Positions 4,295 through 13,388 of a stretch of 23,212 nt of DNA are shown piece after piece (the stretch's first letter is position 1; each line of letters begins with the position of its first letter). The translations under genes were made by a program, and so were the position numbers. The notes below the pieces were generated by a model, which was not told where the DNA came from, made no database searches, and was given only the letters and a program-made list of their open reading frames with translations. The stretch lies in NCBI GenBank assembly GCA_022925895.1, contig JAKSYS010000808.1, positions 1 through 23,212 of the forward strand, written 5' to 3'. The DNA comes from Fragilaria crotonensis (Eukaryota > Bacillariophyta > Fragilariophyceae > Fragilariales > Fragilariaceae).

Positions 4295-5158
4295 ATGACA
4301 ACCACCGGTAGTCTCCGTTCGGAGGATGATAATCTCGAGACAGCTGGTGAGACTGCGGCAACTACGGCAACTACGGCAGTTATCCCTAAGGAGATCGAGA
4401 GCAGCATTGAACACGCCCTTCAAGAATCAGCTCAAGATATGGGTCATCGCATTGGTAACTTTCACAATTACTACTCATTCCATCCACCGTCGATACGACT
4501 GCAGCACATGGGGGCGATTCTGGACTATGTGAGGGACACGTCGTCGCGTAAGCGTAAGCGTGGTGAGCGGGAAGAACGGACATCGCCAGAGCCGTTCCGA
4601 TATTGTGATTTGGGATGCAATGAAGGGGATCTGACGATTGAGATTGCGACGGCCTTGCAAGGGGCATTGCAACAACCTGTGGAGTTCAAGGGAATGGATA
4701 TTGACGCTCAACTTATCCAACGAGCTAACGCCAAATGGAAGAATACCGACAATCTTAGTGGAACCTTTGAGTCAGCGAACATCTGTACAGATTTGGATGC
4801 AAAGATTGAAGATCGCAGTATGGACCTCATCTCTCTATTAAGTACAACCATGTGGGTCCATGTGCACGCTGGCGATGAAGGTCTAAAAAGCGTTTTGGAG
4901 CAACTTTGTCGCAAGTCTCGCAGATATTTAGTGATTGAACCACAGCCCAGCAAGTGTTATCGAAACGCTATGATTAGACTCCGAAAGATGGGTCGCCCCG
5001 AGTTGGACGTTTCGTCAGATCGATTGAAGTGGCGCCTCACGCTTGATGACGAGATTGAGAAAACTCTGAACAACTGTTTGTTCCAACGAGTGTTGACCGA
5101 CAAAGAGCTTACATCGTGGAATAGAAGTATTCACTTGTACGAAAAGCGAGATGGATGA
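4295..5158 (+). CDS. BCDIN3D: BCDIN3D-type RNA 5'-monophosphate methyltransferase
   Basis: A 287-aa SAM-dependent methyltransferase of the Bin3 family. Visible signatures: GNFHNYYSFHPP (54-65), which is nearly the metazoan BCDIN3D substrate-side motif; SAM motif I CDLGCNEGDL (104-113); acidic MDID (134-137); TTMWVHVHAGDEGL (184-197); EPQPSKCYRNA (215-225); and a final WNRSIHLYEK (275-284). Known BCDIN3D proteins methylate the 5'-monophosphate of RNAs such as tRNA-His and some pre-miRNAs; the related MePCE caps 7SK and lacks the NYYSFHPP spelling. The N-terminal 45 residues are low-complexity (Ala/Thr repeats from a CTACGGCAA tandem), and KRKR at 86-89 may be a nuclear signal. The frame opens with TTG at 4286; the ATG at 4295 (context CACCATGACA) is the sensible start. 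The stop lies 11 bp from the stop of the convergent PGM gene. Confidence 0.93.
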   Translation: MTTTGSLRSEDDNLETAGETAATTATTAVIPKEIESSIEHALQESAQDMGHRIGNFHNYYSFHPPSIRLQHMGAILDYVRDTSSRKRKRGEREERTSPEPFRYCDLGCNEGDLTIEIATALQGALQQPVEFKGMDIDAQLIQRANAKWKNTDNLSGTFESANICTDLDAKIEDRSMDLISLLSTTMWVHVHAGDEGLKSVLEQLCRKSRRYLVIEPQPSKCYRNAMIRLRKMGRPELDVSSDRLKWRLTLDDEIEKTLNNCLFQRVLTDKELTSWNRSIHLYEKRDG

Positions 5159-5169
5159 TAAAAATAGAG

Positions 5170-7383
5170 CTACACGGCCAATTCAGAAAGCGTGTCCTCT
5201 GCCGTTGTGAGCTCGGTCTCGGTCTCCTCGATGAGGCATTCTACACCGCACTCCTCATCAGTCGCATTTATAGATTCCTTGAATAACAACCGTGCTGCAG
5301 CACCAAAATCGTAACGTTCCAGCGGATCCACGGCACCTTCTTGAATCAGATTGACAGTCTTCGTAGACACGTCATATATGATAGGCACTCCATTCGGTAT
5401 GTTTAGCTGGGCGATCTTGTCTTCGGGGATATCGCATAAGTGCATGAGCAAGCCACGAATCGCATTTTCGCTGCTCGCGATTAAAACACGCTTGTTTTGG
5501 TCAACAGCTTGCGGCATGATGTTGCGTACAAAGAACGGGATTGTTCGCCGATTGCAGTCGCGAAGGGACTCAGTCTTTGGGAATTTCCGGGTAAGAATGG
5601 GGCGCCGGTATTCTATGCTTCGAATAAAGGAGTCGCTCAGAGAGTACCGCACATCAGTCATGAACTTTTGGTATCGCGGATCATTGCCAGGAAAATCAGG
5701 CGAGAATGAATTCAAAGGCGGAGGCCGAACGTCAAATCCTCGTCGCCATCTCTTGAATTGTGACTCTCCAAAAACTCGAGCAATCATCTTCTTGGACTTG
5801 CCTGTGAGTCCTCCGTAGTTGCGTTCGTTTAGTCTCCAAGTTTTCACGATGGGGAGCCATGTCGAATCAAGTTCATCTAACACGAGCCAAGCAGTTTCAA
5901 TGGCGCGAGACAACCAGCTGGTGTAAACGACATCGAACTCAAACCCAAAGCGCTTCAGCAACTTCCCCGCCTCCCTTGCTTCTTCGGTGCCTTCTGGTGC
6001 TAACGGGGGATCCTGCCAGCCAGTGAAGAGACCCAGTTTGTTGTGCTCTGTCTTCCCGTGTCGAATCATGACTATTGCCGCACCGTGACACGAGGGTGAT
6101 GCCAGCCTATCCTTCAATATCAACCGGTTCGACGTTGAGCTCACGCAGTTTTGGTATGAAATGAGTTGCTGCTTGGCCGTCGAGAGATGCTCAACGACAC
6201 TGACGTTTCCATTTGATGACGATTTTTCATCGTCGTTGAGCTGACAGGCGAGCTCCCTTTCTGCGCTGAGTTTTGTAAGCGACTGCTCCAGAGAATTCAT
6301 TGGTCTGGTAGTGTCCGAGGTCAAAGCTTTGTACCCAGGCACATTCGTCATTCTATACTGCTCTTCTCGAAGAGCCTTCTCTAATAATCCTGGCTTCTCT
6401 AGGAATGTCGCCCAAAGCTCGTTCGGCTTCTTGCCGTCAGGTCGTACCGCTTCAAGATTTCCCCGAAAATCATAAACAAGTGGGATGCCTGGCGGGATGT
6501 GAACATCGACACTGTCATCAGCTATCCCTTGTACGTACTTGACAAGCCCAAGAAGAGTGGTTGCATGACCAACAACAAGAACGTTGTGGCCCGCCAGTAA
6601 TTCAGCTTGAATCTTGTTCTGCCAAAGTGGTTTGATTCGTTTCATGCAGTCCGCCAAAGATTCCGCAGTTGGGATTTCTTTGACATCAGCGAACTTCCTG
6701 TCATTGGCACTCCAGAATGGATCCGTAGGATCCATGGGTGGCGGAGTAGCATATGGATCAGTTCGCCATTGCTGAACAAGGTCTGCTCCGAATGTTTCTG
6801 CAACTTCGGGCTTGCTCAGTCCTGTCAAGGAACCGTAGTGCCTACCATTTAGTCTCCACGATTTGAAGACCGGGAGATAGATGTTGTCCATCTCTCGAAG
6901 GATTGCCCAGGTTGAGTGAATTGCGCGCTTTAATCTAGAAGTAAAGACAACGTCTGGATCGTATCCGGCCTCGCGCAGCAGTCTACCGGCATGTTGGACT
7001 TCTCGCAAGCCTTTCTCGCTGATATCTGGGTCATTCCAGCCGCAAAACGTTGTTTTCGCGTCTGATTGCCCGTTGCGTACTAGAATTAGCGTTCCAGGTG
7101 TCTTGGAGCGCCGCCAAATGAGGTTTCTCATTCCCATCATTCGACTTGCCTCATTCAGGTGAGCCCGCCCTGGGTCAAGCCTGGGAAATATTCGTCGCCA
7201 TAGGCTTTCATCAACTAGTCGAGAGTATCCAGTGTCTGTATTATATCCAGTTTCTTTGGGTGTTCTCGTCTTGGTGCCGGTGGTAAGTCCATCGGTCAAA
7301 TGCACTCCAGCAAGCAGGAGGACGATGAGCTCGACGAGAGCAAGTAGTGCTCTGCTGCTCCTCGTTCTAAAAGCCAGCAGCAT
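5170..7383 (-). CDS. fused double phosphoglycerate-mutase-like protein with incomplete active sites
   Basis: A 737-aa protein with a hydrophobic N-terminal segment (about 12-28, signal peptide or anchor) and two tandem dPGM-type histidine-phosphatase domains (about 96-330 and 434-685) joined by a Ser/Asn-rich linker. dPGM normally needs the phospho-accepting His of RHG, Arg in TSxLxRA, Glu in LNERxYG and a second His in AAHGNS. Domain 1 has RNG (N104 for His), R153, LNGRHYG (G180 for Glu) but keeps GHA (H273). Domain 2 has intact RHG (H442), R493 and LNERNYG (E520) but reads ASSEN where the second His belongs (S638). Each half therefore lacks a different catalytic His. It may be a regulatory or structural pseudo-mutase or have altered activity; glycolytic mutase activity cannot be assumed. 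No AFAP-type plastid motif follows the hydrophobic segment, so location (ER, secreted or other) is open. Confidence 0.92.
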   Translation of the reverse strand: MLLAFRTRSSRALLALVELIVLLLAGVHLTDGLTTGTKTRTPKETGYNTDTGYSRLVDESLWRRIFPRLDPGRAHLNEASRMMGMRNLIWRRSKTPGTLILVRNGQSDAKTTFCGWNDPDISEKGLREVQHAGRLLREAGYDPDVVFTSRLKRAIHSTWAILREMDNIYLPVFKSWRLNGRHYGSLTGLSKPEVAETFGADLVQQWRTDPYATPPPMDPTDPFWSANDRKFADVKEIPTAESLADCMKRIKPLWQNKIQAELLAGHNVLVVGHATTLLGLVKYVQGIADDSVDVHIPPGIPLVYDFRGNLEAVRPDGKKPNELWATFLEKPGLLEKALREEQYRMTNVPGYKALTSDTTRPMNSLEQSLTKLSAERELACQLNDDEKSSSNGNVSVVEHLSTAKQQLISYQNCVSSTSNRLILKDRLASPSCHGAAIVMIRHGKTEHNKLGLFTGWQDPPLAPEGTEEAREAGKLLKRFGFEFDVVYTSWLSRAIETAWLVLDELDSTWLPIVKTWRLNERNYGGLTGKSKKMIARVFGESQFKRWRRGFDVRPPPLNSFSPDFPGNDPRYQKFMTDVRYSLSDSFIRSIEYRRPILTRKFPKTESLRDCNRRTIPFFVRNIMPQAVDQNKRVLIASSENAIRGLLMHLCDIPEDKIAQLNIPNGVPIIYDVSTKTVNLIQEGAVDPLERYDFGAAARLLFKESINATDEECGVECLIEETETELTTAEDTLSELAV

Positions 7384-7685: not shown

Positions 7686-8198
7686 ATGAACGCCCTCGCC
7701 GCAAGCATTCCTCGATTGGTTCAACGCACAGTTGTTCGCAATGCCACGACATCTGCCCGACCTGCCTTTGTCCCTGTAAGTATTCATCCGCGGATCCAAA
7801 GCTGAGATCTGAATGTGTTTGATTTGTTCCCTAACTGCTGGTTTGGAATTCGATTTCTTCAGAAACAATACGACAAGGGTGGATTCAAGAGCACTTGGCT
7901 TTCAGATCCAAGTACTTATCCGCTAATGGTCGTCATGGGAGTTGCAGTTTCTGTTGTCATCGGTATGACGGCCAACGCTCTCTCATCGTACGAGGACGTC
8001 CGCATCGATCCCAAGAAGAGGAACACTTTGGTCCGTGATTGGGGCGAAGATCACAAATATCAACCATTGATTGGAAAGATTGTCTGGTGGAATTCCTGGC
8101 AGAAGAATGCTCCTGAAGGCCTCGGAGTCGATCATCAAACATGGCTTGAAGGAAAAAAGGAATACTACAAGGACTGTGCAAAGCCAACAGATGCTTGA
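7686..8198 (+). CDS. mitochondrial MLRQ/B12D-like small membrane protein (one intron)
   Basis: The spliced product is 141 aa. Exon 1 (7686-7775) encodes 30 residues rich in Arg, Ala and Ser without acids, a good mitochondrial presequence. An 87-bp phase-0 intron follows (GTAAGT at 7776, TTCTTCAG ending 7862). Exon 2 (7863-8198) holds one transmembrane helix (YPLMVVMGVAVSVVIGMTAN) followed by SSYEDVRIDPKKR, the layout of the NDUFA4/MLRQ/B12D family (helix, then DV..DKK), small inner-membrane proteins associated with respiratory complexes. The C-terminal 60 residues (W-rich, with WWNSWQKNAPEGLG) go beyond the usual ~80-aa family length. The family call rests on the helix and the DVxxDPKKR pattern only. 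The ORF can be read back through the intron to an ATG at 7815, but the presequence exon and clean splice sites argue for the spliced form. Confidence 0.65.
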
Positions 8199-8218
8199 AT
8201 TGGCCGATCCAGGAATGT

Positions 8219-8505
8219 CAGAAAACAGGACATGTAATTGTATAACTTCCTTATGATATCGTGATGTATCCTAAGCACCTTTAGCATTGCGCAGCGTATC
8301 CACAATGATTCCGTCAGAAAACAGGACTTGTATTTGATATAACTTCCTTATAATATCGTGATGTATCCTAAGCATCGTAAGCATTGCGCAGCGTAACCAC
8401 AATGATTCCGTCATGTATCACATGTGCTTAAAAATAACCTCCTATATATTGCCATATACCCGAAACACCCTTTAGCATTGCGCAGCGAATCCACAATGAT
8501 TCCGC
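8219..8505. repeat. three imperfect ~96-bp tandem repeats between convergent gene ends
   Basis: Units start near 8219, 8315 and 8412. Each carries an ATAACTTCCTTAT(A/G)ATATCGTG-type block, ATGTATCCTAAGC, AGCATTGCGCAGCG (copies at 8283, 8380 and 8474) and CCACAATGATTCCG. Units 1 and 2 are close; unit 3 is diverged in its first half. The array lies between the stop of the MLRQ/B12D-like gene (8198) and the stop of FtsH (8514), so it forms the 3' UTRs of both genes. Confidence 0.85.
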
Positions 8506-12533: not shown

Positions 12534-13388
12534 ATGAAAGCTTCCGTCGTTATCTGCCATGCTGTATGGTTTGGTTTATTCGACTACAGTCAAGCCTTTG
12601 CGTATGGTTCCCTGAATCGGTCGAATCACCAGCGACACAAGTCACCCACACAACTGTATGCCAAAGATAGTAAGGGCGTCTATGCTCGTCCGTCGGCTGC
12701 TATTGAAAGGGGTTCTGGTTTCTTCATTCCTGGACTGGAGGGTCCTCGAGTCAGACTTTTGTTCGGTCTTACAGTCTTGATCCTCACGGCCGTGAATCAT
12801 GTTTTGGCGGATGTAACGGCCTACTCCTTGACCGAAACATTGGCAGTTGGATATTCGATGCTACTGTTGTTGCAAGCTGCGATTGAATTCGGGAAGGAAG
12901 AAAACGGTTATGTGTTATCATTGGATCGTTCAGAGGCATCTGCGTCGGATCCAAACTCAACTACCGGCGACGTGAGCCTCCTGCAACAATGGGCCTTGGA
13001 CTCCGTCTCCCCGGAATGGAATGAGAAAGTGCAATGGTCAGCGGCGTCCTACATCGCGCTGACACCAGCGAAAACAATTTTGCTATTGGACAAGGATCAC
13101 GTGATTTATAGCCTCGGGTTGAAGGAAGGTGATCTTGATGAAAAGCAAGAATCAACTGGATGTACAGCTGCCATTGAAACGTTGTCCAAAGCAAAAAGTG
13201 GACGTGTTTCATTGCCATCCACACATCCTGCCGTCGTACTTTTGGCCCCTCAAGAATATCGGTGCGTAGTCCTGCAAAGCATTAATGACAGGCAATGCTG
13301 GATGGTGGCATCCGACCAACTCATTCAAGCCTTCACCAACCAAGACCTGAGATGGTTGGGTCAACTTACTAGCTACATTAATGAATAA
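12534..13388 (+). CDS. CCB2/CCB4-like cytochrome b6f cofactor-assembly protein, plastid-targeted
   Basis: A 284-aa protein. The N-terminus is a signal peptide with the cleavage motif SQ-AFAYGS (F22), followed by a Ser/Arg/His-rich transit-like stretch, as expected for diatom plastid import. Two transmembrane helices follow (about 73-92 and 100-118), then a soluble domain of about 160 residues. The C-terminal pattern (a Trp, VASDQL, AFTNQDLRWLGQLTSYI) resembles the CCB2/CCB4 (DUF2930) family, whose members attach heme c(i) to cytochrome b6 on the stromal side of the thylakoid; the conserved end there reads roughly GFTxxDxxWLxxLAxKL. The match is to the domain architecture and C-terminus only, and CCB2 and CCB4 cannot be told apart. 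The ATG at 12534 is favoured because it gives the targeting signal. Confidence 0.7.
   Translation: MKASVVICHAVWFGLFDYSQAFAYGSLNRSNHQRHKSPTQLYAKDSKGVYARPSAAIERGSGFFIPGLEGPRVRLLFGLTVLILTAVNHVLADVTAYSLTETLAVGYSMLLLLQAAIEFGKEENGYVLSLDRSEASASDPNSTTGDVSLLQQWALDSVSPEWNEKVQWSAASYIALTPAKTILLLDKDHVIYSLGLKEGDLDEKQESTGCTAAIETLSKAKSGRVSLPSTHPAVVLLAPQEYRCVVLQSINDRQCWMVASDQLIQAFTNQDLRWLGQLTSYINE

Follow-up and report, generated by a model that had tools for sequence, protein, structure and literature searches.

A tandem phosphoglycerate-mutase protein of Fragilaria crotonensis with a degenerate first domain and a serine in place of the second catalytic histidine in the other

Phosphoglycerate mutases (PGM) of the cofactor-dependent type (dPGM) commonly dimerise, and the second histidine of their active site is regarded as a core catalytic residue of the histidine phosphatase superfamily. 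Residue numbers are those of E. coli GpmA, counted from Met as position 1. In the parts considered of an account of a dPGM crystal structure with vanadate and 3-phosphoglycerate, H11 is the nucleophile, the equivalents of R10, N17, R62, E89, and H184 touch the transferred group, and the backbone nitrogen of G185 also contacts it (PMC3169400); the mapping onto GpmA numbering, by an offset of two, is our own. Human PGAM1 H186R, altered at the position equivalent to the second histidine, was used as a catalytically inactive form in the part of the source considered, the introduced residue being Arg and not Ser (PMC10582428). Among diatoms, the organellar PGAM1 and PGAM2 may resemble the protein described below in being PGAM-type proteins of secondary-plastid algae with targeting extensions, and the parts of that account considered here describe no tandem two-domain PGAM (PMC11371179). 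Searches of open-licence literature turned up no paper with a tandem dPGM in its title or displayed abstract, and searches with exact phrases gave 0 papers.

The stretch of F. crotonensis DNA analyzed here (23,212 nucleotides; the window) encodes such a tandem protein on its minus strand, on which all protein features given below lie. Translation of positions 5170–7383 yields an uninterrupted ORF of 737 codons, with an in-frame TGA two codons upstream of its ATG. It also yields a hydrophobic N-terminus (aa 1–33; 7285–7383) that, judged from the sequence, resembles a signal peptide or anchor; any cell compartment assigned to the protein on that feature would be inferred. Domain 1 (D1; aa 96–345; 6349–7098) has a degenerate active site within a dPGM fold, and a linker of about 88 residues with coding-like codon usage (aa 346–433; 6085–6348) leads to domain 2 (D2; aa 434–690; 5314–6084), which has a near-complete dPGM active site and is followed by a short tail. 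Alignment places a 22-residue insertion in D2 (aa 574–595; 5599–5664) that is absent in the five bacterial rows of the alignment. A codon-usage model, for which seven further ORFs of the window served as training data, ranked frame 0 top in 7 of 7 segments, linker included; its lead was narrow in the insertion segment of 26 codons (0.000 vs −0.020). The Pfam model PF00300 matches two stretches of the protein, and the full-length protein reaches 465.8 bits with TIGR01258 (pgm_1), whose cut-off is 81.7. Each domain is a dPGM by sequence match (TIGR01258) and by fold. These results confirm the fusion of two mutase domains, the intact ORF, and the hydrophobic N-terminus that a sequence-only reading of the locus had proposed.

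In the region 4295–5170, a neighboring plus-strand ORF, methyltransferase-like by eye, stops at 5158, which leaves 11 bases to the end of the tandem PGM gene. The two genes thus run toward each other, and an overlap of their 3′ ends is probable. On the other side, a small gene with apparently two exons (7686–8200, plus strand) begins some 300 bases from the ATG of the PGM ORF, on the opposite strand. Its product has a presequence-like N-terminus and, by eye, one hydrophobic stretch, and is perhaps a mitochondrial membrane protein. A short direct repeat in three copies (8283–8312, 8380–8409, and 8474–8503) adjoins the 3′ end of an FtsH-like ORF. Some neighboring ORFs carry what we take to be plastid-type presequences (for example, SQA-FAYG in the ORF at 12534), suggesting a secondary plastid.

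AlphaFold2 models were built for single domains from 44-row alignments; as these consist of true dPGMs, a dPGM fold is the expected outcome. Mean pLDDT was 90.5 for D1 and 86.2 for D2, falling below 50 in the D2 insertion (model residues 159–167) and tail. The top Foldseek matches were 3fdz_B for D1 (TMt 0.92) and 1e58 for D2 (TMt 0.84), and each domain, as modeled, forms a complete dPGM by itself. The two domains share 32% identity with each other, and their mean identities to 89 prokaryotic dPGM homologues are 42% (D1) and 45% (D2). In a quick tree containing both, D1 and D2 join with a support of 78 that is not starred and carries a long-branch warning, the branches measuring 6.8 and 5.39. 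The pair may have originated by tandem duplication or by fusion of two separate genes.

The baseline for judging the active sites came from a prokaryotic genome search that confirmed 587 stretches, of which the best 80 were taken; the comparison set then comprised 89 loci. Eight residues (R10, H11, N17, R62, E89, R117, N186, and R189) are invariant in 89/89 of these homologues. The second histidine (H184) is present in 88, the sole exception being a protein from a Woesearchaeota metagenome-assembled genome (MAG), L007, which reads ASGN; position 185 is Gly in 88, Cys in one, and Glu in none. No tandem dPGM occurs among the 89 loci, where each match lies within one ORF and no ORF repeats the domain. 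Nor was a tandem relative found in viral contigs: the four matching contigs are all single-domain, and of two stretches that fit a search pattern neither encodes a relative. Among phages and plasmids, no record had a single location that covered 80% of the query.

Conservation was then compared between 17 chosen active-site positions and 63 other columns conserved in at least 90% of rows, six further C-end columns being left out. D1 keeps 10 of the 17 active-site positions and 41 of the 63 other columns, and D2 keeps 14 and 47, respectively; for the 14 picked positions in the N-terminal half, the counts are 9 and 13. The active site of D1 is thus preserved no better than its other conserved columns, and that of D2 only slightly better. 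Of the six side chains that contact the transferred phosphate under our mapping of the structure, based on the parts of that account considered (PMC3169400), D1 keeps three (R, R, and H) and D2 five. Since the first histidine and Glu89 are found in 89/89 homologues and the second histidine in 88/89, the substitutions in both domains lie far outside ordinary variation.

D1 has lost key catalytic residues. Its motifs read RNG and LNGRHYG in place of the canonical ones: N104 (AAC; 7072–7074) replaces the nucleophile His11, G180 (GGT; 6844–6846) the acid-base Glu89, and T208 (ACT; 6760–6762) Arg117. The RHGxSxxN loop has a two-residue gap, and N17 aligns with either D or a gap. The second histidine is retained as H273 (CAT; 6565–6567) in a GHA motif, though G185, N186, and R189 around it are lost. 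By position, D1 carries N at 11, C at 23, G at 89, T at 117, A-T-T at 185–187, and L at 189. It lacks six of the residues that are invariant in 89/89 homologues (His11, Asn17, Glu89, Arg117, Asn186, and Arg189), nucleophile and acid-base residue included. The sequence-only reading had named RNG, LNGRHYG, and the kept GHA, all of which stand, but understated the losses, as T23, R117, G185, N186, S187, and R189 are also gone. A single-base error would suffice for N104 alone and fails to account for the whole set. Judged by its residues, D1 is probably a non-catalytic pseudo-mutase site, and it cannot act as a conventional phosphohistidine enzyme.

D2 presents a different picture. It has RHG and LNERNYG, with the nucleophile H442 (CAC; 6058–6060) and the acid-base residue E520 (GAA; 5824–5826), and its phosphate and carboxylate binders are in place: the equivalents of R10, N17, R62, R90, Y92, K100, R116, R117, and N186 are retained. 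Its C-terminal half keeps N640 and R643, which correspond to N186 and R189. The second catalytic histidine is missing. Where AHGN is expected D2 reads SSEN, with S638 (AGC) and E639 (GAA) replacing His184 and Gly185 (5467–5472; Ser codon 5470–5472). Changes around the site comprise T at 14 (in place of Ser), H at 16, N at 91, S-S-E at 183–185, and A at 187. A single base-call error is excluded for the serine, as CAC to AGC takes two base changes. The Glu at 185, found in 0 of the 89 homologues and in 0 of the 15 archaeal serine-bearing proteins described below, would put a carboxylate beside the phosphate site and may matter for function.

A codon check found N104, H273, H442, and S638 exactly as the sequence-only reading had given them, so its statement that each domain lost a different histidine holds for both substitutions. 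The symmetry it implies is misleading, since D1 lost six invariant residues and D2 only one of the six phosphate side chains.

The natural occurrence of the same substitution was followed in the relatives of L007. A search around its genome (G001) covered 99 related genomes, 70 of them with any match, and a search of its phylum covered 371 genomes, 35 of them with a match at E 1e-40. Together they gave 58 best-scoring loci, five weaker matches of the phylum search being left out; a relative was present at E 1e-30 in 48 loci, of which 41 were unique and 40 readable at the second-histidine position (L146 is cut short). That position is His in 25 and Ser in 15 of the 40. The Ser-type proteins are L007 (identical to L090), L093, L097, L101, L108, L121, L122, L123, L125, L126, L128, L131, L141, L143, and L145, with the serine encoded by AGC in ten genes and by TCN in five. 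Twelve read SGN and three SHN, giving 12 Gly and 3 His at position 185; the three (L131, L141, and L145) read ASHN, as though the histidine had shifted one position along. All 15 keep R10, H11, N17, R62, E89, R90, Y92, K100, R116, R117, N186, and R189. Near Arg62, Ser58 is replaced by Asn in eight and by Gly in one of the 15 Ser-type rows, and is changed in 0 of the 25 His-type rows.

Neither apgM nor iPGM_N was detected in any of the 15 Ser-type genomes (controls positive in 12/14 and 6/14 genomes, respectively), and enolase is present in all 15. In 11 of them the Ser-type gene shares contig and strand with enolase and is at most 1 kb away from it, with a gap of less than 20 bases in five of these; this arrangement was not seen in G001, G012, G032, and G248. 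In 12 of the 15, no PF00300 protein besides the Ser-type one was detected; others occur in G001, G012, and G119, and none of the 15 reaches the cut-off of NF038349, the archaeal-type dPGM model. Seven His-type relatives that were examined also lack apgM and iPGM and possess enolase. The absence of these enzymes is therefore a trait of the whole group and not of Ser-type genomes in particular, and the group seems to rely on a dPGM with either residue. As genome completeness is unreported, the absence of another PGM from Ser-type genomes is not proof; the simplest inference is that the Ser-type dPGMs carry out the PGM step. The Ser-type dPGMs around the Woesearchaeota MAG are possibly a functional class. 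Because D2 shares five transition-state side chains with them, loss of the second histidine does not show that D2 is dead, and it may still be active. The earlier suggestion of a paired pseudo-enzyme accordingly holds for D1 alone; in D2 the single lost histidine does not prove inactivity, since archaeal dPGMs that are intact elsewhere carry the same substitution, most of them as the sole PGM-type protein detected in the genome.

The His/Ser label was traced on a tree of 66 rows, which comprised the 40 readable relatives, a random draw of 25 of the 87 other homologues, and D2. The label switches seven times, D2 included (6–7 over bootstraps), and at least three switches are forced by well-supported branches, which may represent one gain and two losses. 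A clade with support 99/88 unites eight of the Ser rows. D2 sits beside two bacterial His-type rows (82/62) and apart from the archaeal Ser rows, in a tree whose bootstrap had not fully converged. As it does not group with the archaeal Ser rows, its serine looks to have arisen independently, however unsure the placement. Its branch is long (3.32), so constraint on D2 looks relaxed relative to true dPGMs.

The explanation we favor, tentatively, is that a non-catalytic D1 is fused to a possibly active Ser-type D2, the only site that might still transfer phosphate. In this mechanism, 2,3-bisphosphoglycerate would phosphorylate D2 on H442, E520 would act as the acid-base residue, and R441, N448, and R493 would hold the phosphate. 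S638 would occupy the place of the second histidine, while the backbone NH at position 639 could still make its contact. D1 would most likely be an integral structural partner or a regulatory half that binds anions. Arguments against this explanation are the use of human PGAM1 H186R as an inactive form, although it has Arg and not Ser, the Glu at 185 of D2, and the long D2 branch. The activity of D2 and the partner role of D1 are what we infer; residue losses, modeled single-domain folds, and the natural serine substitution are the observations at hand.

A strong rival, which we consider quite possible, holds that both sites are dead and that a two-domain pseudo-enzyme binds phosphoglycerates or a partner protein, regulating or scaffolding glycolysis. 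D1 is plainly non-catalytic by its residues, D2 has gained a Glu beside the position of its missing second histidine, and both domains have long branches in the joint tree, yet the dPGM fold is modeled for each. A dead site, however, need not keep 13 of 14 N-half positions, nucleophile and acid-base residue included, as D2 does (D1 keeps 9), and the second histidine looks dispensable in archaea.

Early gene decay, or a local sequence error in one genome whose orthologues are canonical, is improbable. The sequence comes from a single genome, and an active site in D1 kept no better (10/17) than other columns (41/63) is what the lack of catalytic constraint would produce. Against this stand 737 open codons, a favored frame 0 in 7/7 segments, the confident folds, the two changes behind the serine codon, and the many independent changes in D1. 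Decay as the main reading was thus rejected on an intact, coding-like ORF, in line with the sequence-only view that this is not simple decay, which the 42–45% identity to prokaryotic dPGMs and the modeled folds also bear out.

Still less probable is that D2 acts as a phosphatase or mutase on another phosphorylated substrate and not as a glycolytic PGM. The histidine phosphatase superfamily holds many phosphatases, several of whose models match below their cut-offs, and the 22-residue insertion could change access to the site; the best models, however, are those of dPGM (465.8 bits for TIGR01258, vs 108.9 for the best phosphatase model, ribazole_cobC), and D2 retains each of R90, Y92, K100, R116, and R117.

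Least credible is the proposal that the halves cooperate through intramolecular domain swapping, in a composite site of the D2 N-half (H442 and E520) and the D1 C-half (H273): the two retained histidines are complementary, and the best PDB match in phmmer aligns aa 437–563 and 213–315 (a product of local scoring, not of structure), but dPGM sites form within the fold of one chain, each domain alone models as a complete dPGM, and the would-be donor half in D1 has lost G185, N186, and R189, whereas D2 keeps N640 and R643 in its own C-half.

Returning to the favored pairing of a dead D1 with a possibly live D2, a broader and rather doubtful proposition can be derived. It states that dPGMs can work without the second histidine, that Ser replaced it more than once (in the archaeal group and in the algal D2), and that in the alga a dead twin domain was fused as a permanent partner, only the Ser-type half turning over. 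Should D2 prove active, glycolytic mutases could do without a histidine regarded as core, and motif rules under which such proteins count as inactive would be wrong. The archaeal Ser-type enzymes encoded beside enolase make this dispensability directly testable. A permanently fused dead/live pair would, if true, be an unusual design for an algal glycolytic enzyme.

Compared with known systems, both domains resemble the dPGMs (GpmA/PGAM1; TIGR01258, PF00300) in fold and at most conserved positions, and D2 has the nucleophile, acid-base, and phosphate-binding residues in common with them. Canonical dPGMs, as represented by the 89 homologues, consist of one domain with RHG and LNER, the second histidine being present in 88 of the 89. 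The tandem protein instead consists of two fused domains, the first without His11 and Glu89 and the second without the second histidine. The Ser-type archaeal dPGMs (ASGN or ASHN; for example, L007, L093, L097, and L131) share with D2 the replacement of that histidine by Ser, the retention of the other tested site residues (nearly all of them in D2), and a variable position 185 (His in 3/15). Unlike D2, they are single-domain proteins with no pseudo-domain and stand nearer to canonical dPGMs, whereas Glu at 185 and Thr at 14 occur in D2 and in none of the 15 archaeal Ser-type rows.
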